Source of the DNA: Helicobacter sp. MIT 21-1697
GTDB lineage: Bacteria > Campylobacterota > Campylobacteria > Campylobacterales > Helicobacteraceae
Direction of reading: 5' to 3'
Assembly (NCBI RefSeq): GCF_026241255.1
Contig: NZ_JAPHNC010000001.1
Coordinates: forward strand, 186,001-250,000
DNA length: 64,000 nucleotides
In this document: in pieces, positions 1 through 46,636 of the stretch
Layout: every line of letters starts with the position of its first letter
How positions within the stretch are numbered: the stretch's first letter is position 1
The notes under the pieces: generated by a model
What the model was told of the DNA's origin: nothing
The model's input: only the letters and a program-made list of their open reading frames with translations
The model's database searches: none
Made by a program: the position numbers and the translations under genes

Positions 1-185
1 ATAGAGCTACCATCAAAAGGTATGCCCTCAAAACTTTCTTCATTAATCGCACTGCGCGAAAAGCTCAAATGATGCCATACGCCTTTAATATCACTAAATC
101 GGAAATCAATAAATTCTACTTCATTCTCATCACAGAATCTAAAAAATTCTGCTACTGCTTGTTTGTCTATGCTTACTCTACTCAT
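1..185 (-). CDS. glnA: Glutamine synthetase, N-terminal part (cut by window edge)
   Basis: Only the first 61 codons are inside the window. The reading frame starts MSRVSIDKQAVAEFF, continues with VEFIDFRFSDIKG and ends near FDGSS, which is the beta-grasp N-domain of type I glutamine synthetase (ATP-dependent synthesis of glutamine from glutamate and ammonia, cytoplasmic dodecamer). The start ATG is at 183-185, preceded by AAGGAGC at a normal distance. A TG-extended TATAAT lies about 40 bases upstream. The catalytic domain is outside the window. The call rests on the FDGSS motif and the order of motifs around it. Confidence 0.9.
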   Translation of the reverse strand, partial: MSRVSIDKQAVAEFFRFCDENEVEFIDFRFSDIKGVWHHLSFSRSAINEESFEGIPFDGSS

Positions 186-226
186 AAATGCTCCTTAAAA
201 TGCCTTGATAGAATCTTAATGTGTGG

Positions 227-232
227 ATTATA
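227..232 (-). promoter_or_regulatory. Probable -10 box of glnA
   Basis: On the minus strand the sequence reads TGCTATAAT, a TG-extended -10 with no obvious -35, as is usual for the housekeeping sigma factor of Helicobacter. It lies about 42 bases before the glnA start codon. Inferred from sequence only. Confidence 0.6.
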
Positions 233-315
233 GCATAAGTGAATATCGCTTCAACAAATATCAAAGTTTTTCAATGCAAATTCATTTTGATTTTTAAAGA
301 TTCTATAAATTTGCG

Positions 316-1380
316 CTAATTGGAATTTACTTTGCGATATTCTAGCTCATCTCTTGCCCTGCAACTTTTTGTTTTCGCAAGTTTTGCTAATGCTTCATTA
401 CTTAAAGAGCTATATTCATCGTGTTGGTCTATGATACAAGGCTTACATTTGGGCTTATCACAGAAAAAATTTGTTTTAAATGCCATATCATTGCGTCTTT
501 TACCCTTTGGACTATACCAATGTGCCCTGCCATCATAGGATAAGTCAAAATCCCATACTTCCCCATAGGCTCTAAGCGTGCCTTGAATGTGGCAGGGAAA
601 TATATTCACAAGCATTTGATAATCTCCCACCCTGCTTTGCACATCTGCATTGGTAAAGAAATACGCTATATCCTTTTTGCTGAAGTTTTGTGTTTGAAAA
701 TCACAAGGTGGATTATAAAGGTTAAGATTTTCGTGCGCTGGCGAATCTTCCAAATCTATAATGTTAAAATCTAATATCTCAATGTCTGCTTGTGCGGGAT
801 TATATTGATACGCAAATTGTTCTAAAAGTGGTGTAATTGTTGCTCCCGCATTTTTTAGCCTCTCTTCGCTTTGGAGTAGAGATTCTCTAGCACTTTCAAG
901 CCAATAATTGCGATTAAGAGGATACTCCTCTCCTCCTCGCAAAAGCAAAAAGAGTGCGTCATTATAGGCTTCTTGGTATTGCTCAATGGGCAAGAGATTT
1001 TTAACAAGGGCAAAAGTTCGCTCATCATTTGCAGCAAGAAAAAGCGCATTTGCTTCACCCATAAGATGAATATCTGCTCCTTTTGAAAGCATATAGGGCA
1101 AATGCTTAAAATACCGCTCAACAGGCGTTAAATCACCATTACTTTGATTGATATTTGCCCCAGATTCTATGAGGATTTTTGCACTATTAAAATCTTTAGC
1201 AATTAAAAGTGGAGACCACGACTGCCCCTCTTCGCCATCGGGGCTTAGTCCAAGTGAAAGCAAATAGGCTAAAATCTCCTCACTCCCAGCCCACGCTGCT
1301 CTCCCCACAGCGCATACATTTGAGGAATCTAATGCGTGGAGATTCACCCCCTGCTTTATTATTGCTTTGACTTCCTGCAA
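316..1380 (-). CDS. Ankyrin-repeat protein: body of a nonsense-interrupted lipoprotein gene
   Basis: The 354-codon frame has ankyrin-like units near its start (ILAYLLSLGLSPD, SAKILIESGANINQ, YMLSKGADIHLMG), which typically mediate protein-protein contacts. The C-terminal half has no domain I recognise and ends in a Lys/Arg-rich tail. The only start available in this open stretch is TTG at 1380, without a good ribosome site. The same frame continues upstream through a single TAA (1441-1443) to an ATG at 1569 that encodes a lipoprotein signal peptide and overlaps the trpS stop by four bases. I infer that the intact gene was 316-1569 (about 417 residues), an exported ankyrin lipoprotein, and that this copy is broken or depends on weak re-initiation. 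Confidence 0.6.
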   Translation of the reverse strand: MQEVKAIIKQGVNLHALDSSNVCAVGRAAWAGSEEILAYLLSLGLSPDGEEGQSWSPLLIAKDFNSAKILIESGANINQSNGDLTPVERYFKHLPYMLSKGADIHLMGEANALFLAANDERTFALVKNLLPIEQYQEAYNDALFLLLRGGEEYPLNRNYWLESARESLLQSEERLKNAGATITPLLEQFAYQYNPAQADIEILDFNIIDLEDSPAHENLNLYNPPCDFQTQNFSKKDIAYFFTNADVQSRVGDYQMLVNIFPCHIQGTLRAYGEVWDFDLSYDGRAHWYSPKGKRRNDMAFKTNFFCDKPKCKPCIIDQHDEYSSLSNEALAKLAKTKSCRARDELEYRKVNSN

Positions 1381-1440
1381 ATTTTTTGATTGCGTAATGG
1401 CAGCAAAAAAAGCTTTTTCTAATTGCGGATTGTTTTTTGA

Positions 1441-1569
1441 TTACAAGGGCTTTTGTGCTAGATTTTGGGTGGAATCTCTATCGTGTAATGCTGCTTCTAA
1501 ATCCCCCTTGTTTTCTTGTGAGCAGCTTATGAAGCATAGGGAGCAGAGGAAATAAACAAAAATCCTCAT
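1441..1569 (-). pseudogene. Lipoprotein signal peptide fragment belonging to the ankyrin gene
   Basis: ATG at 1569 shares ATGA with the trpS stop, a typical translational coupling. The 42 codons read [22 protein letters not shown] and so on: a charged N-terminus, a hydrophobic core and a lipobox ending at Cys16. They stop at TAA (1441-1443). Position 1569 minus 1380 is 189 bases, exactly 63 codons, so the downstream ankyrin body is in the same frame and only one stop codon separates the two parts. Either the stop is a real nonsense mutation or it is a sequencing error. Confidence 0.7.
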
Positions 1570-2570
1570 ACAAGCCCGACTAATCTTTTTGCATTCTCAT
1601 AAGTGGCTTTTGCGATAGGGCGGATAGAATCCGCACTTTTATCAAGCACACTTTGGATATAGGCTTTATCTTGGCTGATTTTGGCATAGGATTGTTGGAT
1701 AGGACGCAGAGATTCTATAATCACTTCAGCAAGAGCAGTTTTGAGATGTCCATAGCCTTTGCCTACAAATTCAGATTCTATATCTTGGCGACTTTTTTGT
1801 GTGAAAATCTCATAAATGCACAGCAGATTATACAACCCTGCACGAGATTCATCAAAGATAATGTTGCTTTGAGAATCTGTAACTGCCCTCTTGCATTTGC
1901 GTATAATGACATCAGGAGAATCAAGCAAGAATATCGCGTGGTTTTCGCCTTGAGCGGATTTGCTCATCTTGGATTCTGGATTGTCAAGTCCCATTACACG
2001 CGCACCAACTTGAGGTATCATAGGTTCAGGGAGAGTGAAGCATTCCCCATAATCACGATTAAAGCGCAAAGCCACATCACGCGTGAGTTCCAAATGCTGT
2101 TTTTGGTCTTGACCCACAGGCACAAAATCAGTTTGATAGAGTAAAATATCTGCAGCCATAAGCGCGGGGTAGTTGAATAAGCCGACATTAATATTTTTTG
2201 GATTTTTATTTGATTTGTCCTTAAACTGCGTCATACGACTCATATCGCCCATAGGGATATTACAATCTAAAATCCACGCTAACGCGGCGTGCTCATCAAT
2301 TTGGCTTTGGATAAAAAGATGTGATTTTTTGGTATCAATTCCACAAGCAAGGAGAATGCCTGCAAGTTCATAAGTTTTGTTTTGTAGTTCTTGTGGATTT
2401 TGTTGTATTGTAATGGCGTGAGAATTAACCACGCAAAAAATATTTTCATATTGCTCTTGAGAATCTACCCAATGTCTCACTGCGCCAAGATAATTGCCAA
2501 GATGAATATTGCCTGTGGGCTGGATACCTGAAAAAATACGCTTTTTGCCTAAATGAGCGTGAGATTGCAT
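1566..2570 (-). CDS. trpS: Tryptophanyl-tRNA synthetase
   Basis: Class I aminoacyl-tRNA synthetase that charges tRNA-Trp in the cytoplasm. The protein shows the HIGH-type signature TGNIHLGN at residues 19-26, the core [13 protein letters not shown] at about 153-165 and KMSKS at 201-205. I chose the ATG at 2570 ([13 protein letters not shown]) because GGGAG lies just upstream; a TTG five codons earlier would put the ribosome site inside the gene. The resulting 334 residues fit the family. It overlaps the downstream ankyrin lipoprotein gene by ATGA, so the two are probably co-transcribed. Confidence 0.97.
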
Positions 2571-2600
2571 ATTGCTCCCTTTCAATCAAACTAAAATCGT

Positions 2601-2606
2601 ATTATA
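2601..2606 (-). promoter_or_regulatory. Probable -10 box of trpS
   Basis: The minus strand reads CATATAATACG, giving TATAAT about 30 bases upstream of the trpS start. Inferred from similarity to the Helicobacter -10 consensus. Confidence 0.5.
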
Positions 2607-2860
2607 TGATATTTGGCTTAAGCATAAAAGTGATAGATGCTATTAAATCTGAAAAAACCAAAGAGAACTCGTTTTTTACCAAAAGAATATCAAAGAGTTG
2701 TTATACAAGGAAATGGGCATCATTTAGAAAAAGAATTTACCTTCATTCGCCAAAAACTAAAAGAAGCCTTAAGAATCTCAAGGTATAACTATTAGCGATG
2801 AGGAACTATAAAGAAAAGATAAAAGATTTTTAACACAAAATTCTATACCTAAACTTCAAT

Positions 2861-2866
2861 TATAAT
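2861..2866 (+). promoter_or_regulatory. Possible distal -10 box of the por operon
   Basis: TATAAT in the context caattataataaaaac, about 160 bases upstream of the first por gene. A perfect palindrome begins 18 bases downstream. A second -10-like box lies nearer the gene. Sequence inference only. Confidence 0.4.
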
Positions 2867-2883
2867 AAAAACTATCTTTGTAG

Positions 2884-2905
2884 TTAGTAAAAAATTTTTT
2901 ACTAA
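2884..2905. promoter_or_regulatory. Perfect 22-bp AT-rich palindrome upstream of porC
   Basis: The half-site ttagtaaaaaa is followed directly by its reverse complement ttttttactaa. It sits between the two putative -10 boxes of the por operon. It could be an operator, or a factor-independent terminator for reading from the left; the run of T lies inside the palindrome rather than after it, which makes an operator somewhat more likely. Confidence 0.4.
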
Positions 2906-2986
2906 AGTGTGTAGAATCTACCTATTTAAAGAAAGGCTTTTATTAAAATTGTTTCAAAATTATACAAAATCTAAGAATTGCTGTGC

Positions 2987-2992
2987 TAAAAT
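2987..2992 (+). promoter_or_regulatory. Probable proximal -10 box of the por operon
   Basis: TAAAAT in tgtgctaaaatccgc, 37 bases upstream of the porC start. The same tgctaaaat context recurs upstream of the lipoprotein gene at 30744, which supports a real promoter type. Confidence 0.5.
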
Positions 2993-3028
2993 CCGCACTT
3001 AAGAAACCAACACAATAAAGGAGAAAAA

Positions 3029-3589
3029 ATGCTAGAAATCAGGTGGCATTCTCGTGCTGGGCAAGGTGCTGTAACAGGCGCAAAAGGTCTTGCTGATGTA
3101 ATTGCAGGGACAGGCAAGGAAGTGCAAGCTTTTGCGTTTTATGGTTCAGCAAAACGTGGTGCTTCAATGACAGCGTATAATAGGATAGATTCCCAACCTA
3201 TCCTCAATCACGAGAAATTTATGAATCCGGATTATATTTTGGTTATTGACCCGGGTTTAGTGTTTATTACCAACATTTGCTTGTATGATAAGCCCTCTAC
3301 GAAATACATTATCACAACGCGTTTAAGCAAAGAAGAGTTAATTGAGAAAAAGCCCGAACTTGCAAGCAAAGAGATTTATACGCTTGATTGTATTCAAATC
3401 TCCATTGATGCGATTGGTAAATCTGTGCCTAATGCGCCTATGCTTGGGGCATTAATGAAAGTTTCAGGTATGCTTGAGATTGATTTCTTTTTAGAATCTT
3501 TTTCTAAAGTGCTTGGCAAAAAGCTTCCACCACAAGTTATTGAGGCAAATAAGGTGGCAATTAGACGAGCTTATGAGGAAGTCAAATAA
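3029..3589 (+). CDS. porC: Pyruvate:ferredoxin oxidoreductase, gamma subunit
   Basis: First gene of a four-gene operon in the order gamma-delta-alpha-beta, which is the order of the H. pylori pyruvate (not 2-oxoglutarate) oxidoreductase. The 186 residues match the usual length of the gamma subunit. The N-terminus has the family signature WHSRAGQGAVTGAK followed by GSAKRGASMTAYNRI, which helps hold the coenzyme A and TPP sites. The enzyme makes acetyl-CoA and reduced flavodoxin/ferredoxin from pyruvate in the cytoplasm and is oxygen-sensitive. AAAGGAG precedes the ATG. Called porG in some annotations. Confidence 0.93.
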   Translation: MLEIRWHSRAGQGAVTGAKGLADVIAGTGKEVQAFAFYGSAKRGASMTAYNRIDSQPILNHEKFMNPDYILVIDPGLVFITNICLYDKPSTKYIITTRLSKEELIEKKPELASKEIYTLDCIQISIDAIGKSVPNAPMLGALMKVSGMLEIDFFLESFSKVLGKKLPPQVIEANKVAIRRAYEEVK

Positions 3590-3604
3590 GACAAAGGAGA
3601 GATT

Positions 3605-4012
3605 ATGGATAAGTTAAAAGATTGGGATAAATTTGAAATCGGCTCTGTGCTTTTTCCTTTCAAAAAAGGCGTAGATGGAAGAAAAGAGCTGTATAAATAT
3701 GAAAGAACATATAGTGGGGATAGTTCTTTTACCGATAGTGTGGCTCATTGGCGTGTAGAAAAGCCTGTGCATAATAGTGAGATTTGCATTAATTGTTTTA
3801 ATTGTTGGGTATTTTGTCCTGATGCAGCAATCCTTACAAAAGATGAGAAACTTGCGGGAGTGGATTATGTGCATTGCAAAGGTTGTGGTGTATGTGTAGA
3901 TGTATGTCCTACAAATCCTAAATCATTGCTTATGTTTAATGACCATAAGGATAATGAGCAAGTCCTCAAAGAGTGGCCAGCTAAAGAATCCAAAAAACCC
4001 CAGAATGCATAG
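3605..4012 (+). CDS. porD: Pyruvate:ferredoxin oxidoreductase, delta (ferredoxin) subunit
   Basis: This is the electron-transfer subunit, with two 4Fe-4S binding motifs: C61-x2-C64-x2-C67-x3-C71-P and C91-x2-C94-x2-C97-x3-C101-P. It passes electrons from the TPP site of the beta subunit to the outside acceptor. The 135 residues are close to the H. pylori protein, including the N-terminal extension before the ferredoxin fold. It begins 15 bases after porC, with GGAGAG before the ATG. Confidence 0.93.
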   Translation: MDKLKDWDKFEIGSVLFPFKKGVDGRKELYKYERTYSGDSSFTDSVAHWRVEKPVHNSEICINCFNCWVFCPDAAILTKDEKLAGVDYVHCKGCGVCVDVCPTNPKSLLMFNDHKDNEQVLKEWPAKESKKPQNA

Positions 4013-4023
4013 AGGAGGAAAGA

Positions 4024-5244
4024 ATGGCTAAAACAATGGAATTACGAACAATTGAGGTGTGGGACGGGAATATGGCAGCCTCTCAAGCATTGCGTCAAGC
4101 ACAAATTGATGTGGTAGCTGCTTATCCTATTACGCCTTCAACTCCGATTGTGCAAAACTATGGAAATTTTGTGAGTAATGGCTATATTGATGGTGAGTTT
4201 GTAATGGTAGAATCTGAACACGCTGCTATGAGTGCGTGTGTAGGTGCTGCTGCAGCTGGAGGAAGAGTAGCAACTGCGACAAGCTCTCAAGGTTTTGCAC
4301 TTATGGTAGAGGTGCTTTATCAGGCTTCTGGTATGCGTTTGCCTATCGTTTTGAATCTTGTCAATCGCGCACTTGCCGCGCCGCTCAATGTGAATGGGGA
4401 TCATTCTGATATGTATCTTAGTCGTGATACAGGTTGGATAAATCTTGCTACTTATAATCCCCAAGAAGCATATGATTTTAACCTTATGGCTTTTAAAATT
4501 GCTGAAGATAAACGCGTAAGAGTGCCTGTGATTGTGAATCAAGATGGTTTTATTTGCTCTCACACTGCTCAATCAGTGCGTCCATTTACCGATGAGGAGG
4601 CATATAAATTTATTGGCGATTATATTTCACATAATCCTATGCTTGATTTTGCTAATCCTATCACTTATGGAGCGCAAACAGAGGAGGATTGGCATTTTGA
4701 ACATAAAGCACAACTCCATAAGGGCATTATGGATTCAGCAGCAGTGATAGAGGAAGTGTTTGAATCTTTTGCAAAGGTTTCGGGGCGCGCATATAATCTT
4801 GTTGAGACTTATATGCGCGAAGATGCAGAGGTGGCGATTGTTGCACTTGGCACAAGCGTAGAATCTGCTCGTGTGGCTGCTCAAAAAGTGCGCAAAGAGA
4901 AAGGAATCAAAGCAGGAGTGCTTTCGATTCGGACTTTGCGTCCATTTCCTTTTAAACAATTAGGAGAGGCACTCAAATCTCTTAAAGCTGTGGCGTGCCT
5001 TGATAGAAGTCTTCCCGCTGGTGCGCTTGGTATGCTCTTTAACGAATTTTCAGCTGCGGCTTTATCTGCTGGAGCACACCCTGTAATGTCAAATTATATC
5101 TATGGACTTGGCGGACGCGATTTGACGCAGGCACATTTAGAGAGTATTTTTGGTGAGCTTGATGCCAATGCAAAAGCTGGTAAGCTTACACACCCAGTTC
5201 AACAAATGTTAGGGCTTCGCGGACCTAAAATGAGCTTTTTTTAA
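4024..5244 (+). CDS. porA: Pyruvate:ferredoxin oxidoreductase, alpha subunit
   Basis: The alpha subunit carries the pyrimidine-binding domain (VVAAYPITPSTPIVQ near residue 30, FVMVESEHAAMSACVGAAAAGGR near residue 60) and a C-terminal transketolase-like domain (EVAIVALGTSVESARVAAQ). Length 406 fits the H. pylori PorA. It works with the beta subunit to bind TPP and decarboxylate pyruvate. It follows porD by 11 bases with GAGGAGG in front. Confidence 0.95.
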   Translation: MAKTMELRTIEVWDGNMAASQALRQAQIDVVAAYPITPSTPIVQNYGNFVSNGYIDGEFVMVESEHAAMSACVGAAAAGGRVATATSSQGFALMVEVLYQASGMRLPIVLNLVNRALAAPLNVNGDHSDMYLSRDTGWINLATYNPQEAYDFNLMAFKIAEDKRVRVPVIVNQDGFICSHTAQSVRPFTDEEAYKFIGDYISHNPMLDFANPITYGAQTEEDWHFEHKAQLHKGIMDSAAVIEEVFESFAKVSGRAYNLVETYMREDAEVAIVALGTSVESARVAAQKVRKEKGIKAGVLSIRTLRPFPFKQLGEALKSLKAVACLDRSLPAGALGMLFNEFSAAALSAGAHPVMSNYIYGLGGRDLTQAHLESIFGELDANAKAGKLTHPVQQMLGLRGPKMSFF

Positions 5245-5251
5245 GGAGAAT

Positions 5252-6202
5252 ATGATGGTAAAAGAAGTTAAAAATCTCAAAGAGTTTCAAAAATCATCAA
5301 AGAAATTTGAGGGTGCGCATTTGCTTTGTCCGGGTTGCGCTCACGGAATGATTGTGCGCGAGGTATTAAGTGCGGTTGATGGACCTATTATTTTGGGAAA
5401 TTCCACAGGTTGTCTTGAGGTTTCAAGTGCAGTATATCCACATACAAGCTGGGACGTGCCTTGGATACATATTGGGTTTGAAAATGGTTCTACTGCTGTG
5501 GCTGGTGCAGAGGCTATGTATAAAGCTCTTGCACGCAAAGGTAGATACACAGGTGAAAAACCTAAATTTGTTGCATTTGGCGGAGATGGTGCAACTTATG
5601 ACATTGGATTCCAATGGATTAGCGGGTGTTTTGAGCGCGGACACGATATGACTTATATTTGTCTTGATAACGAAGTGTATGCAAATACAGGTGGGCAGAG
5701 AAGCGGCTCTACCCCGCTAGGTTCTAGCACTTCTACAACTCCTGCAGGAAGCGCAAGCTATGGAAAAAAGGAGCGCAAAAAAGATTTACTTTTTATTATG
5801 GCAGCTCATCACGCTCCTTATGTTGCCCAAGTCGCTCCAAATAAATGGAAAGATATGAATAAAAAGATTAAACGCGCTATTGATACAGAGGGTCCGACAT
5901 TTATCAATGCAATGAGTGCTTGCACGACAGAATGGCGATTTGAATCTAACAAAACCGTTGAAATTAGTGATTTAGCTGTGGATTCTCTTGTATTTCCATT
6001 ATTTGAAATTATTAATGGTGTGGAGTTGCACATTACTTATCGTCCGCGTAATGTTATCCCAGTGCGCGATTATTTGGGTGCGCAAGGACGTTTTAAACAT
6101 CTTTTTAAACCTGAAAATGAGCATATCATTAAGCAATTTCAAAAAGATGTTGAAACGCGTTGGGAATATCTCCAACGAAGAGAGGAAATTAATCCCAAAT
6201 AA
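5252..6202 (+). CDS. porB: Pyruvate:ferredoxin oxidoreductase, beta subunit
   Basis: TPP-binding subunit. It has the diphosphate/magnesium motif GDG at 111-113 with Asn140 and Asn145 (LDNEVYANTGGQ), and N-terminal Cys26/Cys29 (CPGCAHG) that take part in a cluster in this family. The 316 residues agree with PorB; the OorB subunit of the 2-oxoglutarate enzyme is clearly shorter, which supports the pyruvate assignment of the whole operon. The gene starts 8 bases after porA, behind AAGGAG. Confidence 0.95.
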   Translation: MMVKEVKNLKEFQKSSKKFEGAHLLCPGCAHGMIVREVLSAVDGPIILGNSTGCLEVSSAVYPHTSWDVPWIHIGFENGSTAVAGAEAMYKALARKGRYTGEKPKFVAFGGDGATYDIGFQWISGCFERGHDMTYICLDNEVYANTGGQRSGSTPLGSSTSTTPAGSASYGKKERKKDLLFIMAAHHAPYVAQVAPNKWKDMNKKIKRAIDTEGPTFINAMSACTTEWRFESNKTVEISDLAVDSLVFPLFEIINGVELHITYRPRNVIPVRDYLGAQGRFKHLFKPENEHIIKQFQKDVETRWEYLQRREEINPK

Positions 6203-6217
6203 GAATCTTTATAGAGA

Positions 6218-6246
6218 ACTGCATATTAATAAATTTTTTATGCAGT
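6218..6246 (+). terminator. Possible stem-loop after the por operon
   Basis: Perfect 8-bp arms actgcata / tatgcagt with a 13-base loop, 16 bases after the porB stop. There is no good T-run behind it, and the rpoD -10 box follows at once, so it may be a weak terminator or an RNA processing site. Confidence 0.35.
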
Positions 6247-6252
6247 CTTAGA

Positions 6253-6258
6253 TAAAAT
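6253..6258 (+). promoter_or_regulatory. Possible -10 box of rpoD
   Basis: TAAAAT in gataaaattgcc, about 37 bases before the rpoD start. Spacing and context resemble the other Helicobacter-like promoters in this window. Confidence 0.45.
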
Positions 6259-6294
6259 TGCCGATTTTGTTATATCCCATTTAAGGACATTGCT

Positions 6295-8166
6295 ATGTCA
6301 GAAAAATCCGATAAAATCAGTAAAAAATCAAAAGAAGTTAATGCCGAATTAGAAAGTCTTTTTAAAGAAGAAGATAGTGATTATATCACTTATGAAAAAA
6401 TTGCCCAAATTATCCTTAAAGCCCCTACTACTACACAAGTTAAGAAAATTAAAGACTTAAGCAAAAAATATAAAAAACAACTTTTGAGTTCATCTGAAGT
6501 TGCCAAAATGCTCAATACTCAAGAACAGATTAAGCGCCAAGCTGATAAGAAAAAAATGCTCAATGAAGAGCTTGAAGATGAATTTGATTTTATGAAAGAT
6601 AAGGAATTACTTGAGTGGAGCAGAAGTGATAGCCCTGTGCGTATGTATTTGCGTGAAATGGGGCAAATTTCACTTTTGACAAAAGAAGAAGAAATTAGCT
6701 TAAGTAAAAAAATAGAATTAGGCGAAAATACGATTCTTGATGCGATTTGCTCTGTGCCTTATTTGATTGATTTTATTTATGATTACAAAGACGCCCTTAT
6801 AAATCGTGAGCGGCGCGTTAAAGAGCTTTTTAAAAGTTTTGATGATGATGAAGAGGAGAGTGAGGAGGAAGAGGAAGAATTTGATATGCTTGATGATGAG
6901 GAAGCATCGCGTAAATCTAATTCTAAAAAAGACCAAAAGCGTGTAGAGAAGGTTATGGAAAGTTTCAAAGCACTCGATAAAGCCAAAAGAGAATGGCTCA
7001 AAGTGCTTGAAACACCCATAACAGAGGGTGAAGACGAGTTGGCTCATATTTTGCTCCTCTCACATAAGAAGCATATTTTAAAGATAAAGCTTTTAGATTT
7101 AGGACCTACGAGTAAGCTTATTGGTGAGCTTGTAAAAGCAATGGAAAACACTCTAAAAAGTGGTGATGGCTTTGAACGCGAATTGAAACGTTTAGAATAT
7201 AAATTGCCATTGTTTAATGATATGCTTGTTGAGAATCATCAAAAAATCCTTGCGAATATCACAACAATGAGCCGCGATGAGATAGCCGCAATGGTGCCAG
7301 AAACAACAATGGTAAGTGTGTATGTGGAACTCAAGAAACTTTTTCAAACTAAAGAGGCAAGTGAGGGGGGATTCAATTTAGAGCCAGAAAAGCTTAAAGA
7401 AATCTTAGAGCAAATCAAACGTGGTAAGTCTATCTCCGATAAGGCAAAGGCGAAAATGGCAAAATCCAATCTCCGCTTGGTGGTGAGTATTGCCAAACGT
7501 TACACAAATCGTGGTTTGCCTTTCCTTGATTTAATCCAAGAGGGCAACATTGGACTTATGAAAGCAGTGGATAAGTTTGAATACAAAAAAGGCTTTAAAT
7601 TTTCAACTTATGCGACTTGGTGGATTAGACAGGCAATCTCTCGTGCGATAGCTGACCAAGCACGCACGATTCGTATTCCTATCCATATGATTGAAACGAT
7701 TAATAGAATCCACAAGATTATGCGCAAACACGTGCAAGAAACAGGCAAAGAGCCAGATATTGATTTTATCGCTAAAGAAGTGGGGTTGCCTATTGATAAA
7801 GTAAAAAATGTGATTAAAATCACAAAAGAACCTGTGAGCCTTGATGCGCCTATTGGAAGCGATGATGATGGTAAGTTTGGAGATTTTGTGGAGGATAAAA
7901 GCTCGGTTGGTCCTATGGATTATATCCTTAAAGAAGATTTAAAAGTGCAAATTGATGAGGTGTTAGAACAGCTCAATGATAGAGAAAAGGCGGTGATTCG
8001 TATGCGTTTTGGCTTGCTTGATGATGAATCTGATAGAACACTAGAAGAAATTGGTAAGGAACTCAATGTAACGCGTGAGAGAGTGCGACAAATAGAATCA
8101 AGTGCGATTAAAAAACTCAAGCACCCAAAAGTAGGTAGAAAGCTTAAAAATTATATTGAGGAATGA
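6295..8166 (+). CDS. rpoD: RNA polymerase sigma factor RpoD (sigma-70/80)
   Basis: Primary sigma factor. Region 1.2 is visible from about residue 112 ([21 protein letters not shown]), region 2 from about 385 ([19 protein letters not shown], then [20 protein letters not shown]) and region 4.2 from about 582 ([21 protein letters not shown]). A non-conserved spacer at about 182-204 is almost purely Asp/Glu. Length 623 is a little shorter than H. pylori RpoD. It has its own -10-like box after the por operon. Its known promoter preference, an extended -10 without a conserved -35, agrees with the boxes seen elsewhere here. Confidence 0.97.
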
Positions 8167-8239
8167 TGCGTATTTTATGTATTTTTTAGATTTTTAAGAT
8201 AGAATCCGAGTTTTATTTATACCAATCAAGGAGGTCAAA

Positions 8240-8512
8240 ATGGCTTTAGATATGGCGAAGAAAAAAGAGATTATTACTAAATTCGCACGAGATAGCAAGG
8301 ATACAGGTTCAAGTGAGGTGCAAATTGCACTCCTTTCACAAAGAATCGCAGATTTAACAGAGCATTTAAAAGCTAATCCAAAAGATCATTCAAGTCGTTT
8401 GGGGCTTTTAAAACTTGTCGGGCAGAGAAAATCACTTCTTTCTTATCTTAAGAAAACGCAATACAATCGTTATGCGAAGCTTATCAGTGAGCTCAAACTC
8501 AAAGACAGATAA
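8240..8512 (+). CDS. rpsO: 30S ribosomal protein S15
   Basis: The 90-residue protein carries the S15 pattern [23 protein letters not shown] and [23 protein letters not shown]. It binds 16S rRNA early in 30S assembly. A strong AAGGAGGTC precedes the ATG, and a TAGAAT box at about 8200 could be its -10. It faces the DUF268 methyltransferase gene on the other strand with one base between the stop codons. Confidence 0.97.
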
Positions 8513-8513
8513 G

Positions 8514-9368
8514 CTAATTTTTAATAAATTCAAATAAGCCTGTGTAATAAGCCCTATTATGGGCTTTTGGCATAGAATCTAGTGCATTTTGATTAATGTG
8601 TAGGCTGTTATTTTCCCATTTCATACATTCTATGACATCAAAATCTTTGATATAGCCCATTTGAACAATCTGCATAGAATCTAGTGCGTCAATGATAGTT
8701 TGGGGTTTGTAAATGCGGTGGGCATTGAAACAAAGCTTATCCTCATCTGCCACAGGCACACTAAGATAAAGTCGCCCATTAGATTGTAATACTCTTTGAA
8801 AGGCTTTGAGTGCGCTTTCCCACGCATCTGGCTCTATGGGGTCTCCATATCGTCCAAGTCCGAAATGTTCCACGCTGCACAAAGCAGAAAGTGATTGGAT
8901 AGAATCATCAGCGATATTTTCTAAACGCGTGGCGTTGCTTTGAATATATGTTATGCCCCCCCCCCGCTCATTTAAAAAGCTTGTATTAAATTGATTATTC
9001 ATTGGGCGAATATCAAGCAAAGTAATTTTTTGATTGAATGTAAGGAGATGTGCGATAAATCCAAATACGCTAGAGCCTACATCATAATGCACATCAGGTT
9101 TGTGCTCTAGCACTTTACGCGCTCCCCACATATCTTGGATAAAATATTGACAATCCACAACGCCATTGGGCGCGTATTTATCCCCTTTGCAGATATAATC
9201 CCATTTGCTATCAAGCCTAAAACGCGCATCTTTGTTTAAACGCGTATAAGTGGCTTTGTCTTGAGCGATTTCCGCATTACTCATCATTTTGTGGCTTGGC
9301 AAAGGATATTTACCAAAAAGTCGCAGTGTTTCGCGCACAATCTTTTGTGCCAAAGTCTTTTTTTGCAT
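8514..9368 (-). CDS. DUF268-type SAM methyltransferase-like protein, phase-variable
   Basis: The 284-residue protein has a methyltransferase-like core: YDVGSSVFGFIAHL (motif I position), ITLLDIRPM (acidic end of the second strand) and SLSALCSVEHFGLGRYGDPI, the most typical DUF268 segment. Such proteins often sit in surface-glycan loci, but the substrate is unknown. A run of ten G on the coding strand (8956-8965) encodes GGG near residues 136-138. At length ten the frame is open, so the gene is ON; gain or loss of one G would cut it near its middle. It lies 16 bases behind the exporter gene with AAGGAG before the ATG, so both are probably one transcript. Confidence 0.75.
   Translation of the reverse strand: MQKKTLAQKIVRETLRLFGKYPLPSHKMMSNAEIAQDKATYTRLNKDARFRLDSKWDYICKGDKYAPNGVVDCQYFIQDMWGARKVLEHKPDVHYDVGSSVFGFIAHLLTFNQKITLLDIRPMNNQFNTSFLNERGGGITYIQSNATRLENIADDSIQSLSALCSVEHFGLGRYGDPIEPDAWESALKAFQRVLQSNGRLYLSVPVADEDKLCFNAHRIYKPQTIIDALDSMQIVQMGYIKDFDVIECMKWENNSLHINQNALDSMPKAHNRAYYTGLFEFIKN
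8956..8965 (-). repeat. Homopolymeric tract of ten G (coding strand), contingency locus
   Basis: Ten C on the plus strand inside the DUF268 gene. Tracts of this length slip readily during replication in Helicobacter and Campylobacter. The current length keeps the frame open. Confidence 0.9.
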
Positions 9369-9384
9369 ACAATCTCCTTATTCT

Positions 9385-11460
9385 TTAAGGTTTAGATTCT
9401 ATCACAACCTTATTGTCTTTTACTTTAAAGCGTCCGCATATAAGCAACAACATTATGCAGCTCATTCCACTAAAAATGACTTCTCCAAAAGAGTTGAGAG
9501 CTTTTGTGTTTGAAATCATCAAAATTCCAAAGCTTAATCCTGTGGTAAGTGCAGAAAATACAATCGCGTGAGTTGTGCGCGGATTATCATCTTCTTTTAT
9601 GGCATAGATTCCATAATCCACGCTTACTACGACCAAAATGAGCAAAGCAAAAAGGTGCATCATATTTAACACACTATGGCTTGATATGACACACAGAGCT
9701 ATACTCAAGGGAAAAAGCACAAAGCTTGCTGCACTTAAAAATGCTCTACGTGTGTTAAAAGCAAGAGTTAAGAGCATAAGGCATAGCGCAATACCAAGCA
9801 CGATAAGCATAGGTTGATAAATAGAATCCGCTAGGTTGTCCATAATGCTTTGTATTGAACGTGCTTCAATACACACATTGGATTGCACGATTTCTTCTTG
9901 CTCCTGTGCATTCCATAGCTCTTGTGGATTTATAGTGTTTTTAGAATCGCTGGGGAGTGATTGTAAAGATTCTAAAAGTTCGTGTGCCTTAGCAATTTGG
10001 GCTTTTGACATAGAGGCGAGATAATAATACTTTTCTAAATGTGATTCTCCCTCACTTTGGCGAAAAGTTATTACACCTGTGGATTGTATAAGCCCACGCA
10101 CAAAGAGCATAAGCCCATCGCTTTTATCTGCAAAGAGTAACACATCATCTCTTTGTTTGTCTTGAATGTGCATAAAAAACGCTCTCTCTTCAAGCATAGG
10201 CTTATTTTGATAATCAAGTTTAGAGAGGTCAAAATCAAGTCTAAGCTGTGTGCTTGCGTAAATAAAACCTATTATTGCTATGCCTAAAAATATAATACTT
10301 GGCACACAGGGTTTTCTCAATGCTGAAATTGCGTTAAAAAGTCGTGGTGGTTTAAAGCCTATGCGTGGATATATGAATGCGAAGTTGATATATGCTACAC
10401 TTAAGGAAATCATCGCATAAAGGGCAAGTTGCGATAAAAGAGGAAAGGGGATAAACAAACACGCGCCAAAGCCCACCATTGTTGTAAAATAGCCATAAAA
10501 CACAGGGAAATTAAAAGGGGGGCGAGGGTGTGTAGATTTTTTGCTAGAACTTGCGCTTTGTGTATAAAGCCCAAAGAAGTGATGGTGCATCATATAATCA
10601 ATAGCGATATTTGAAATGCCCATACCAAAGCTTAATACCATAATCGTAACTTTTGGATATATACAAAGGGTAAGCAAAATAGCAATCGCATTAGAGAGAA
10701 TGAGTGTGCAAATAGTATAAAAGGTCAAAAGCGGTATGCGAATAATGACAAAATACAGCAGCACAAACACAAATGAGGCAAAGCCTAAAAGAAAATTAAC
10801 TTCATTTAAAATCAATTCTAGATTCTCTACACGCATAAAATCAGATGAAAAATAGCGCATATCAGGGTAATCTTGTTTTAGCATTTTAAAGCTTTGCAAC
10901 GTGGATTTAATAGCCTTATCTTCAAGGCTTGAAAGCTCTACCAATGCCATTAAGCCATAATCTTTTGCCGCAAGAGTAGAGGTATCTAGTGAGTTAGAGG
11001 AGGTAAAGTGATTTGTAAGTTGGTGCAACAAAGGCGCAAAAATCTTTTGTGCTTCAAGTGAAGTGGGAGTGTCTTGTGAGTGTGTTTGCGTGTGAGAATC
11101 TAAAGAAGTGTCGTGTGGAGGGAGGATATAAGAAGTATTTTGTGTTAAAAAGGCGTAGAGTTGCTTTTCTAAGGGGACATTTTGCTCAATCACAGAGGAA
11201 ACATAAGGCAGAGATTGAATCTTGTGGGTAAGCTCTTGCATACGCTTTTGTGCGTTTTTATCAAATCCTTTAATCGCCACAGGCACATATTTAGAGCTAG
11301 AAAAATACCTGTATGCCTCAATGATTTGTTTATCGTCATTATGTGGGAATAAATCAAGCACTTCCTGACTCACGCGTTGTGGTTCAAAAGCCCACCAAAA
11401 TACACCAAGAGTTGCAAAAAAACATAAGCTTAAAACAAAAAGAAGTGCATTGCCCCGCAT
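9385..11460 (-). CDS. RND/MMPL-superfamily predicted exporter
   Basis: The 691-residue inner-membrane protein has the RND half-repeat layout: one N-terminal membrane helix (1-25), a periplasmic domain (about 26-215), a group of helices (about 220-370), another single helix (about 388-407), a second periplasmic domain and a final helix group (about 555-680). The stretch LSFGMGISNIAIDYMMHH matches the conserved transmembrane segment of MMPL/COG4258-type exporters, whose suggested cargoes are lipids or polyketide-like compounds. No outer-membrane channel or adaptor gene is nearby. Co-transcription with the phase-variable methyltransferase suggests a shared substrate; this is inference. Confidence 0.8.
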   Translation of the reverse strand: MRGNALLFVLSLCFFATLGVFWWAFEPQRVSQEVLDLFPHNDDKQIIEAYRYFSSSKYVPVAIKGFDKNAQKRMQELTHKIQSLPYVSSVIEQNVPLEKQLYAFLTQNTSYILPPHDTSLDSHTQTHSQDTPTSLEAQKIFAPLLHQLTNHFTSSNSLDTSTLAAKDYGLMALVELSSLEDKAIKSTLQSFKMLKQDYPDMRYFSSDFMRVENLELILNEVNFLLGFASFVFVLLYFVIIRIPLLTFYTICTLILSNAIAILLTLCIYPKVTIMVLSFGMGISNIAIDYMMHHHFFGLYTQSASSSKKSTHPRPPFNFPVFYGYFTTMVGFGACLFIPFPLLSQLALYAMISLSVAYINFAFIYPRIGFKPPRLFNAISALRKPCVPSIIFLGIAIIGFIYASTQLRLDFDLSKLDYQNKPMLEERAFFMHIQDKQRDDVLLFADKSDGLMLFVRGLIQSTGVITFRQSEGESHLEKYYYLASMSKAQIAKAHELLESLQSLPSDSKNTINPQELWNAQEQEEIVQSNVCIEARSIQSIMDNLADSIYQPMLIVLGIALCLMLLTLAFNTRRAFLSAASFVLFPLSIALCVISSHSVLNMMHLFALLILVVVSVDYGIYAIKEDDNPRTTHAIVFSALTTGLSFGILMISNTKALNSFGEVIFSGMSCIMLLLICGRFKVKDNKVVIESKP

Positions 11461-43641: not shown

Positions 43642-43851
43642 TTATTTTTTCTTGCACATTGTAACTCCATTTTGCACAATGCACTTTCTATTAAACTCAT
43701 AATCAATCGCCATTACAAAGCAGATTAAAAGAATAGCAAATCCAGTCAAAATATCTCTAATCCAATTTCGTTTTACTTGCGCTTTTTCATCTGTGTTTAA
43801 TTCTTTCCATTTTCTAGGTTCTTCGTATTTGGGATAACGTTTCTCTGTCAT
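43642..43851 (-). CDS. Small single-span membrane protein
   Basis: 69 residues: a charged N-terminal half (TEKRYPKYEEPRKWKELNTDEKAQVKRNW), one membrane helix at about 33-50 (ILTGFAILLICFVMAIDY) and a short tail with two Cys. AGGAAGAAAAA before the ATG supports translation. No family recognised. It is the last gene of the island that also holds the ATPase/TOPRIM pair. A role with that pair is possible but not shown. Confidence 0.55.
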   Translation of the reverse strand: MTEKRYPKYEEPRKWKELNTDEKAQVKRNWIRDILTGFAILLICFVMAIDYEFNRKCIVQNGVTMCKKK

Positions 43852-43860
43852 TTTTTCTTC

Positions 43861-44067
43861 CTATGGATAATGAGTAGCCCAATTAAAATAATCAATAAGC
43901 ATAAGGCTTGTCCCATACTTGTTTTCAACTCCTTTTGTTCTTATCCATTGCTTGATGCAGCAAAACTTGTGCCATATCATACCATTTTTACAACAATTAA
44001 AATTTGATTGATGAGGAATAGGCAAAACAACAAAGAGATTTGTTTTAGAGAATCTAGCTTGGGACAA
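43861..44067 (-). CDS. Doubtful small ORF downstream of the TOPRIM gene
   Basis: 68 codons from a TTG without a ribosome site, rich in Cys and Trp, ending MLIDYFNWATHYP. It has no recognisable family. The stretch between the TOPRIM gene and the small membrane protein gene may simply be non-coding or hold a decayed gene. Confidence 0.2.
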   Translation of the reverse strand: MSQARFSKTNLFVVLPIPHQSNFNCCKNGMIWHKFCCIKQWIRTKGVENKYGTSLMLIDYFNWATHYP

Positions 44068-44090
44068 TGGAGTTTAGGATTTTAAAGAGT

Positions 44091-44654
44091 TTATGGGTTA
44101 AATATAAAACTATGAAGAGGTTGCAAATAAGATGAATTAAAATTAAAATATTGACTAAATATATTCTCATGCATTGTATATTCATTTGATTTTATAATTT
44201 TTTCTAAACCGCTTGCCTCACGATAAGCATACATTTTTGATTTTTTATTAATATTATCTGCAAATTCTTTAGATTGAGATTTGATACATTCGACATATTT
44301 TTCAAAACATTCTATTATTTCTTTATATTTGGCAATCTGAACAAGTAAAGTTTCAAGATTGCCTTTGCTTTTATTATCTGGGAATAAAAATATTTTTACT
44401 TTATTCTTATCTTCTAAGCCTATTATTTTGTTTTCAATTTCCTGTCGTGTTTGATTATAATCTAAATCAGCATCAAAAATAATACAAACCCTATAATTAT
44501 TATCCAATGCTTTTTTAATCTTTTGTAAGTTTGCATTTTGAAGCTGATTGCTATTATTTACAATAATTTCATATTCAGATGGAAAATTTTTATAGTGTAT
44601 ATACTGCTCTAAAAATACTTTATCACTTTTACCTTCTACAACAAATAAGGTCAT
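44091..44654 (-). CDS. TOPRIM-fold protein, partner of the AAA ATPase (DUF3226/RloB/AriB-like)
   Basis: 187 residues. The TOPRIM pattern is visible: strand plus acidic residue in MTLFVVEGKSDKVFLEQY (Glu7), then CIIFDADLDYN (Asp61, Asp63, Asp65) and DNKSKGNLETLL, which supplies a further conserved Glu. TOPRIM domains of this kind act as nucleases in OLD, Gabija, PARIS and RloAB-like systems. The ATG lies one base after the ATPase stop codon, behind AGGGAT, so the two are co-translated. The precise family is uncertain. Base composition is lower in GC than the flanking housekeeping genes. Confidence 0.7.
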   Translation of the reverse strand: MTLFVVEGKSDKVFLEQYIHYKNFPSEYEIIVNNSNQLQNANLQKIKKALDNNYRVCIIFDADLDYNQTRQEIENKIIGLEDKNKVKIFLFPDNKSKGNLETLLVQIAKYKEIIECFEKYVECIKSQSKEFADNINKKSKMYAYREASGLEKIIKSNEYTMHENIFSQYFNFNSSYLQPLHSFIFNP

Positions 44655-44655
44655 T

Positions 44656-45705
44656 TTAATCCCTAAATTCTGTTTTAGTTTTTAGTAAATTTTCTAAGTC
44701 TTTCATATCATATTTATAAGTTTGCAAACCTTTAAGATTAGTTCTTGCAATATTAAAAATAGCAATTTGTTCGTATTGATACTCGCTAGAGATTGTATTA
44801 AGAATTTCTAAAAACTCATAGCTATGGGCGGAAATAAAGAGCTGTATATGTGTTTCTTTCGCTAAAGCAATAATGGCTTTAAGCAACTTTTGCATTGATT
44901 CAAAATGAAGTCCATTTTCAATTTCGTCAATACAAATATATTCGTATTCCCCCACAATGATACTTGCCAAAATCGCCAAATATTTTTTAAACCCTTCTCC
45001 CATAGTATGAAAGCTAATTTTTTTAGACATACCTGCCAAATCAACCATTATCTCACCATTGATTACCTCTATTCCCTGTATATGCTCATCAAAGATTTGG
45101 AGGTATTGTAATAAATCTTTTTCTTTTTTGTGAATCCTTAGTCTAGCTAAAATTGAGGCTGTATTCATAAATGTATGGCTTGGGAGCATCATACCTGAAA
45201 ATGAGGGATAATCTGCTTGGGCAAATCTATTAATAATATTATTTTCGTGAATGTCAAAGCCACTTTTTACTGCAGGATCCCCATTAAATTGTATATCAAA
45301 TTTTAAACCTGTGATATAAGCATTATCTGTTTTTTTATCTAAAACTTTATTTATGTTTATATCATTTGGCAACATTTGGGCAAAATCATTTGTCGTTTTT
45401 GGTGTAATTTGCAAGTGCATTTTTTGTTGCTTATAAAACGAGGTAATTTCAATCGGTTGGCTCACATCAAGCTGATGAAAAAAATAATCTAAATTGTCGT
45501 GGCTCACTTGTATTTGTCTTACAAAATTAGACACAATAGATACGATATTCATAGAATTGCTTGGCTGAAAATTAAGAAATATCGCCTCAAGCAAGGAGGT
45601 TTTACCACAATTATTCTTGCCTACAAAAATATTAATCTGTGTGAGGTTTTCAATTTGTATAGAATCTAATACTTTATAATTCTTTACTTCTACACTTTCT
45701 ATCAC
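44656..45705 (-). CDS. AAA (OLD-like) ATPase of a two-gene ATPase/TOPRIM system
   Basis: 349 residues with an ABC-type ATPase fold: MIESVEVKNYKVLDSIQIE at the start, Walker A FVGKNNCGKTSLL (about 28-39), a signature-like MGEGFKKYLAILASII (235-250), Walker B YICIDEIENGLH (256-267, Asp260, Glu261) and the switch His294 in FISAHSYEFLE. This is the AAA_15/AAA_21 layout of OLD, RloA and AriA proteins. GTG start behind TAGGAG. With the TOPRIM partner directly downstream, an anti-phage defence role is the most likely function by analogy; nothing in the sequence proves it. Confidence 0.75.
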   Translation of the reverse strand: MIESVEVKNYKVLDSIQIENLTQINIFVGKNNCGKTSLLEAIFLNFQPSNSMNIVSIVSNFVRQIQVSHDNLDYFFHQLDVSQPIEITSFYKQQKMHLQITPKTTNDFAQMLPNDININKVLDKKTDNAYITGLKFDIQFNGDPAVKSGFDIHENNIINRFAQADYPSFSGMMLPSHTFMNTASILARLRIHKKEKDLLQYLQIFDEHIQGIEVINGEIMVDLAGMSKKISFHTMGEGFKKYLAILASIIVGEYEYICIDEIENGLHFESMQKLLKAIIALAKETHIQLFISAHSYEFLEILNTISSEYQYEQIAIFNIARTNLKGLQTYKYDMKDLENLLKTKTEFRD

Positions 45706-45884
45706 ACTAGACTCCTAAACTTTAATTGATTGAATGAGAACAGCAAAAATAATTCCTTGACATTTGAAATATATAAAAAGTTTGTTAATATAGAATTTAG
45801 TAGCTTTATTTTTTTCAAAAGCAAGAAGATTAAAAAATTGATAGATATGAAAATAGATGAGTGAGAGTAGTATTCACTTGGTGC
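45706..45884. other. Intergenic stretch upstream of the ATPase gene
   Basis: About 180 AT-rich bases between the ATPase start and the 43-codon gene. It probably holds the promoter of the ATPase/TOPRIM operon (for example CTATATTAAC on the minus strand). I see no further gene or strong repeat. Confidence 0.4.
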
Positions 45885-46016
45885 TTATCCTAGTATTTTT
45901 GACAAACTCTTCAACTCTATTTCATTAGGCTGTGGAACATAGCAATAGCCATTTTCTCCATTACTATATGAAATTTTAAAAGCTAAATTATATTTTTCAA
46001 TTTTTAGTCCATCCAT
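45885..46016 (-). CDS. Very small protein (43 residues) downstream of the phase-variable gene
   Basis: ATG at 46016 with AAAAGGAGA at ideal distance, giving MDGLKIEKYNLAFKISYSNG followed by ENGYCYVPQPNEIELKSLSK and ILG, then TAA. The ribosome site directly follows the stop codon of the preceding gene (46028), so the two are likely co-transcribed. No family recognised; it could be an antitoxin, immunity or accessory peptide, but that is speculation. Confidence 0.55.
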   Translation of the reverse strand: MDGLKIEKYNLAFKISYSNGENGYCYVPQPNEIELKSLSKILG

Positions 46017-46027
46017 TAAGTCTCCTT

Positions 46028-46556
46028 TTATTTTTCTTTTATAATACCATATATTCTCAAAAATTTTTCTAAATTTTCGGACAGCCCTACCTCATAATGA
46101 GTCATAAAATTATTATATACATCATCGGGCATAGAATCTAACATCCAAAAATACCCTGATTTTTGGAATACCTTATAATAACAATCTTTATTTATTTTTT
46201 TCATATCTAGTTGGAGATTATACCTTTTTGCTCCATCAATACGATTTACAACACAATATGCAACATTGACCCCATGATTATAACCTTGATGCCCTCTATA
46301 TATTTTTTCTTTTTTACCTTTAACATCAATATATTTATAATCCAAACCTTTTTCATCTTGTAACCAATTATCATCTCCCCTCGCCTCATTTGCAAAAGTA
46401 ACAACCAACCAAAACACTAACAACCAAACTCTTAATATTACCTTAAAACTCAAGTAATAAGGAGGTGCGTTGTCTTTGTGATGTGTGGCAAGATTCACAG
46501 AATGTGGTGTGTAGGAAAGTAGCTTATGCCCCCCCCCCCGTTAAAAAGCACTTCAT
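46028..46556 (-). CDS. Phase-variable membrane-anchored protein, out of frame as sequenced
   Basis: The main frame (46028-46498) encodes one strong hydrophobic segment (VILRVWLLVFWLVVTFA) and about 115 extracytoplasmic residues of unknown function. Its nominal GTG start lacks a ribosome site. Further upstream an ATG at 46556 has GGAGGG six bases before it and reads MKCFLT into a run of eleven G. With eleven G the frame ends at TGA after 20 residues; with twelve (or nine) G it runs on through HKLLSYTPHS into the long frame. I infer that the true gene starts at 46556 and is switched OFF here. Confidence 0.65.
46529..46539 (-). repeat. Homopolymeric tract of eleven G (coding strand), OFF state
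   Basis: Eleven C on the plus strand, six codons after the inferred ATG. The length puts start and main frame out of register by one base. Confidence 0.9.
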
Positions 46557-46636
46557 AGTTACCCTCCATTAGATAAATTAAAGCCACAATTTTATAAAAA
46601 TAATCCAAAAGAGTTTCTTAAGGATACAACGCAAGA

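Follow-up and report, generated by a model that had tools for sequence, protein, structure and literature searches.

An AbiL-type gene pair, encoding an ABC-type ATPase and a predicted TOPRIM nuclease, in a mobile cassette of Helicobacter sp. MIT 21-1697

Two adjacent genes of Helicobacter sp. MIT 21-1697 encode an AAA-type ATPase and a small protein with TOPRIM-like residues, which raises the question of what kind of defense system the pair represents and how it might act. The genes lie in a stretch of 64,000 nucleotides, referred to here as the window. A sequence-only reading of this DNA had proposed a split OLD-like ATPase-TOPRIM defense module, possibly of a new subtype, and had raised the association of a small membrane protein downstream. 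The features of the locus, under the names that they receive below, are as follows.

44656..45705, minus strand: AbiLi, an ABC/AAA_15-AAA_21-type ATPase of 349 aa with a GTG start (PADLOC, Pfam, motifs, and fold)
44091..44654, minus strand: AbiLii, a DUF3226 TOPRIM nuclease-like protein of 187 aa (PADLOC, Pfam, AF2, Foldseek, and conservation)
45706..45814, minus strand: conserved cassette leader with a ribosome-binding site and probable promoter region (DNA similarity to the cassette in L053 reaches 45814)
44046..45814, minus strand: mobile AbiL cassette of ~1.77 kb (DNA similarity limits against cassettes at other chromosomal sites of the sister genome G002; G+C content)
43975..46498, no strand assigned: stretch without a counterpart in the orthologous ruvB-motB interval of G002 (blastn of the window against L092)

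The ATPase gene comes first and the TOPRIM gene second, both on the minus strand, and a single base (44655) separates them, as had been read before. The G+C content of the cassette is 28%, compared with 38% in the window. A promoter scan of the leader was non-specific, and the promoter and terminator scan as a whole was uninformative. Both genes are under purifying selection, with a dN/dS of ~0.17-0.28. AbiLi is the probable sensor or regulator, and AbiLii is the probable toxic effector.

The identity of the pair was examined by profile searches. The first protein matched the PADLOC AbiLi model PDLC02336 with an E value of 1.6e-77 over residues 1-348 of 349 (profile positions 1-340 of 340), as well as the Pfam families AAA_21 (7e-19) and AAA_15 (1e-17). 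The second protein matched Pfam DUF3226 (PF11536) at 1.8e-18 and the PADLOC AbiLii model PDLC02338 at 1.7e-13, a short model of 125 positions that spans residues 40-184 only; its match to a second AbiLii model, PDLC02337, was weak (0.0016). No match to the AriB, DUF4435, or RloB (PF13707) profiles of Pfam and PADLOC was found at an E value of ≤1. Among the families that the sequence-only reading had named as candidates, AAA_15, AAA_21, and DUF3226 were thus recovered and DUF4435 and RloB were not, and its remark that the 187-residue partner does not clearly match AriB or RloB was borne out. The relatives behaved likewise. All 29 aligned ATPase relatives matched AbiLi, all 25 aligned TOPRIM relatives (from Campylobacterota plus one Flammeovirgaceae bacterium) matched DUF3226, 21 of these 25 matched AbiLii at an E value of ≤1e-3, and only 3 of the 25 had a match to RloB, a weak one. 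Given these matches to the AbiLi, AbiLii, and DUF3226 models, shared by the relatives, and the lack of AriB, DUF4435, and RloB matches, the pair is assigned to AbiL through the PADLOC models. The founding lactococcal AbiL was not reached by tblastn of the plasmid collection, and a search of the phage collection gave no match. The pair is a known kind of system, one that fits the described AbiL and not the new subtype that had been considered; its architecture had been read correctly. What is added here is the AbiL/DUF3226 identity, the matching active-site residues, the independence of the membrane protein, and the evidence of mobility and decay. AbiL was discovered decades ago, and no description of its biochemical mechanism was found in the literature. 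The system was previously reported in H. pylori strains (PMC12003011).

All of the ATPase motifs noted before, namely, Walker A and B, a signature-like segment, and a switch histidine, were found in AbiLi. The Walker A motif is GKNNCGKT (G29...G34-K35-T36), the signature-like GEG lies at positions 236-238, the Walker B motif is ICIDE (D260-E261), and the switch residue is His294. G29, G34, K35, E261, and H294 were invariant in both alignments (29 and 21 relatives). Gln288 was also invariant in both, and at the extreme C terminus Arg348, within an E-x-R motif, was near-invariant. The AlphaFold model had a mean pLDDT of 77, and its structural matches were Rad50/SMC heads, retron PtuA, and PARIS AriA.

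In the predicted structure of AbiLii (AlphaFold2, mean pLDDT of 90.5), strands and helices alternate in the order typical of a TOPRIM domain, and a small helical region comes after them, as expected of the TOPRIM partner that had been proposed. With Foldseek, the best matches among viral structures were DnaG-type TOPRIM domains, with probabilities of 0.99-1.00 and a weak best E value (0.007); matches in the PDB were weaker, with topoisomerase I, RecR, and AriB among the low-scoring ones. When the sequence was compared with those of solved structures, the single sequence gave nothing informative, and weak matches appeared with a profile only, the best being an archaeal hypothetical protein (0.0015). 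The pattern of Glu7 and Asp61-Asp63 described earlier held up well: E7 and D61 were invariant in the 25 relatives and D63 was nearly so, and in a distant set of 19 relatives, E7 and D61 were still invariant and D63 was present in 15. Across all 44 aligned rows, E7, D61, E101, and K138 were invariant. In the solved Class 2 OLD nuclease, two metals are bound via E400, D455, and D457 and via E404, T506, and E508, and K562 from the helical domain is used in the active site (PMC6755086). Assigned by residue order and predicted secondary-structure context, the counterparts of E400, E404, D455, D457, E508, and K562 in AbiLii are, in the same order, E7, D11, D61, D63, E101, and K138. In the predicted structure, the helix that follows the last TOPRIM strand carries E101 in its first turn, and a later helix carries K138. 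D11, E101, and K138 are catalytic-type residues beyond those recognized before, and the OLD-type pattern E, E/D(+4), DxD, helical E, and helical K thus appears to be present. Since this two-metal set is kept in order, AbiLii is predicted to be an active metal-dependent nuclease with an apparently complete two-metal site.

Conservation of the gene pair in other genomes had been named as a check by the sequence-only reading. DUF3226 was found in 56 of 397 sampled Campylobacterota genomes, 46 of them above the curated cutoff. Of the DUF3226 loci in Campylobacterota genomes outside the genus, 36 were examined, picked mainly among the stronger DUF3226 matches. Every one had an AbiLi-type ATPase gene immediately upstream in the same orientation, usually with a gap of -23 to +19 nt; a few of these loci had an early-called TOPRIM start, and in two of them the ATPase frame was split. 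The same gene order was seen in most AbiLi relatives on prophage and viral contigs and also, with a TOPRIM-like partner, in archaea, Bacteroidota, Planctomycetota, and Melainabacteria. AbiLi-like ATPase genes were present, too, on small (~4 kb) ColE2-type Klebsiella plasmids, in >130 records (L121, NZ_CP070894.1), in which the second gene would span the record start.

How could such a pair act? In Lactococcus, AbiL protects against phage by abortive infection (Deng 1999, as cited in PMC3985639), and AbiLii of Fusobacterium is toxic in Escherichia coli (PMC3985639). In PARIS, the TOPRIM nuclease AriB is bound by AriA until infection, when it is released and cleaves tRNAs of the host (PMC12409363). 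We consider it likely that the pair studied here is an abortive-infection system on a mobile cassette, made of a sensor ATPase and a toxic nuclease. AbiLi would be an ATP-dependent oligomeric sensor that keeps AbiLii inactive, and a phage product or activity would switch it so that AbiLii is activated or released. AbiLii, a compact two-metal TOPRIM nuclease as judged from its conserved residues and fold, would then cut a host-essential nucleic acid, and growth would stop before phage is made. The restrained-effector step is uncertain, because in E. coli the AbiLii of Fusobacterium was not neutralized by its AbiLi (PMC3985639), even though toxin-antitoxin behavior has been shown for other AAA/OLD-TOPRIM pairs (PMC10440598). 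By analogy with AriB, the substrate would most likely be RNA, probably tRNA, a proposal that we hold at about even chances. With its 187-residue effector carrying an apparently complete two-metal site and its ATPase of the AriA/PtuA kind, AbiL offers a testable small relative of PARIS.

The choice of substrate is where another explanation competes. AbiLii could be a DNA nuclease that AbiLi loads onto DNA ends and that, like OLD or GajA, acts on the DNA of the phage or the host. Its active-site residues match those of Class 2 OLD, a DNA nuclease (PMC6755086), and AbiLi resembles Rad50/SMC heads. However, RNase M5 and AriB, both of which cleave RNA, have the same two-metal set (PMC6755086 and PMC12409363), the division into two genes is as in PARIS, and the toxicity of AbiLii alone in E. 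coli (PMC3985639) does not distinguish RNA from DNA targets. A DNA target is thus a serious possibility, but one that we hold to be the less probable. It is rather unlikely that the DUF3226-type AbiLii of Campylobacterota forms a distinct branch of minimal TOPRIM effectors with a substrate and trigger of its own, unlike lactococcal AbiLii or AriB.

The pair could also be a toxin-antitoxin or addiction module that has no phage-specific trigger and serves mainly to maintain itself. The toxicity of AbiLii (PMC3985639) and the neutralization within AAA/OLD-TOPRIM pairs (PMC10440598) would fit, as would two AbiL cassettes of G002 in which AbiLii bears a frameshift near codon 14 and AbiLi is open. 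On the other hand, the Fusobacterium AbiLi did not neutralize its AbiLii (PMC3985639), AbiL protected Lactococcus from phage (Deng 1999, as cited in PMC3985639), and relatives of the pair adjoin restriction-modification genes and occur in prophages, so we regard this explanation as improbable. That the pair is a new PARIS or RloAB subtype is highly improbable, since, despite the same split layout and a score of 3.6e-20 for AbiLi against the PADLOC models of AriA, the AbiLi model is better by 57 orders of magnitude and the partner is without an AriB, DUF4435, or RloB match at an E value of ≤1.

The pair was also compared with known systems. AbiL of Lactococcus lactis, with homologues in Fusobacterium and elsewhere, has the same two-gene operon order, and its PADLOC models fit the two proteins here; compared with the lactococcal sequence through models alone, the partner here is a clear DUF3226 protein whose match to the second AbiLii model, PDLC02337, is weak. 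In RloA/RloB, too, a small TOPRIM-like protein follows an ATPase of the AAA_15/21 type, but the pair here has no RloB match and lies outside any type I restriction operon; RloAB membership was rejected because the partner is not RloB by profile search (E≤1). AbiLii was described as RloB-related in the NetFlax study (PMC10440598), whereas the partner here is not RloB-related by sequence. PARIS likewise has separate ABC ATPase and TOPRIM genes, with similar ATPase folds; however, its ATPase has 464 residues compared with ~350 here, and the partner shows no similarity to AriB/DUF4435 and, at 187 aa, is far shorter than the AriB chains of 305-306 residues. PARIS membership was rejected since the effector is not of the AriB/DUF4435 type by the same search. 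OLD nucleases, GajA (Gabija), and the retron Eco8 effector share the two domains and the two-metal residue pattern, but the domains here are on two genes, with neither the GajB helicase nor a reverse transcriptase adjoining; the fused OLD family (Class 1-3) was rejected because the ATPase and TOPRIM domains are in separate open reading frames. The PADLOC candidate PDC-M38 (A plus B) matched both proteins (1.5e-41 and 3.6e-12), with scores below those of AbiL for each, and is probably an overlapping candidate family.

The genomic setting was analyzed by comparison with related genomes. In the sister genome G002, the flanks are 88-97% identical, and the ruvB-motB interval is without the AbiL pair. 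Homology between the window and L092 (G002) stops at 43974 and restarts at 46499, with 483 unrelated bases in between. The 69-residue membrane protein encoded downstream (43642-43851) is also present at this AbiL-free site; for this reason, it is outside the AbiL system, and its suggested association with the pair was abandoned. G002 carries two AbiL cassettes elsewhere, at different chromosomal sites (L053 7675-9381 and L054 7566-9270), which are 99.5% identical over 1.7 kb. The duplicated stretch ends almost exactly where the cassette does, and the two copies bear the same AbiLii frameshift. The empty site together with these cassettes elsewhere indicates that the AbiL cassette moves horizontally and that the copy here entered the chromosome between ruvB and motB.

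The closest named relative found was H. japonicus, with an AbiL copy that is 80% identical. Protein identity to the G002 copies was 81%. An independent recent acquisition, to which this value might point, is not claimed, because the dS of AbiLi against the G002 copies (0.61) is the same as for motB and ruvB (0.57). With synonymous divergence equal, AbiLi simply evolves faster, and an old cassette may just as well have been relocated as a new one recently acquired. One of the G002 copies and the H. japonicus-like copy in the genome G004 adjoin a helicase gene and a type IIG restriction-modification gene. In G009 (L052 7531-9161), only a C-terminal fragment of AbiLii is left, beside a pentapeptide-repeat gene and remnants of that type IIG gene; this locus is an eroded AbiL remnant. 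Gain, loss, and duplication of a defense cassette are thus displayed inside one Helicobacter group.

Two further observations concern the surroundings of the cassettes. Beside proA/ispG (L054/L055, ~1-9500) lies a defense hotspot with the helicase and type IIG genes, a variable gene, and AbiL. The variable gene is PDC-S31-like in G002 and encodes a pentapeptide-repeat membrane protein in G004. The restriction part is 94% alike between G002 and G004, compared with 86% for the chromosomal flank, suggesting transfer. At 46498-46560 (minus strand) of the window, there is a conserved leader that contains a start codon and a tract of 11-14 G residues, e.g., ATGAAGTGCTTTTTAAC-G11-CATAAGC. Such leaders are found upstream of small, variable genes, mostly for exported proteins, at two sites here and two in G002 (the window site, L120 ~1500-1545, L053 6095-6132, and L092 ~3230-3330). 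The tracts have lengths of 11, 14, 11, and 11, and with each of the four the frame is closed after ~10 codons. This points to a phase-variable family.
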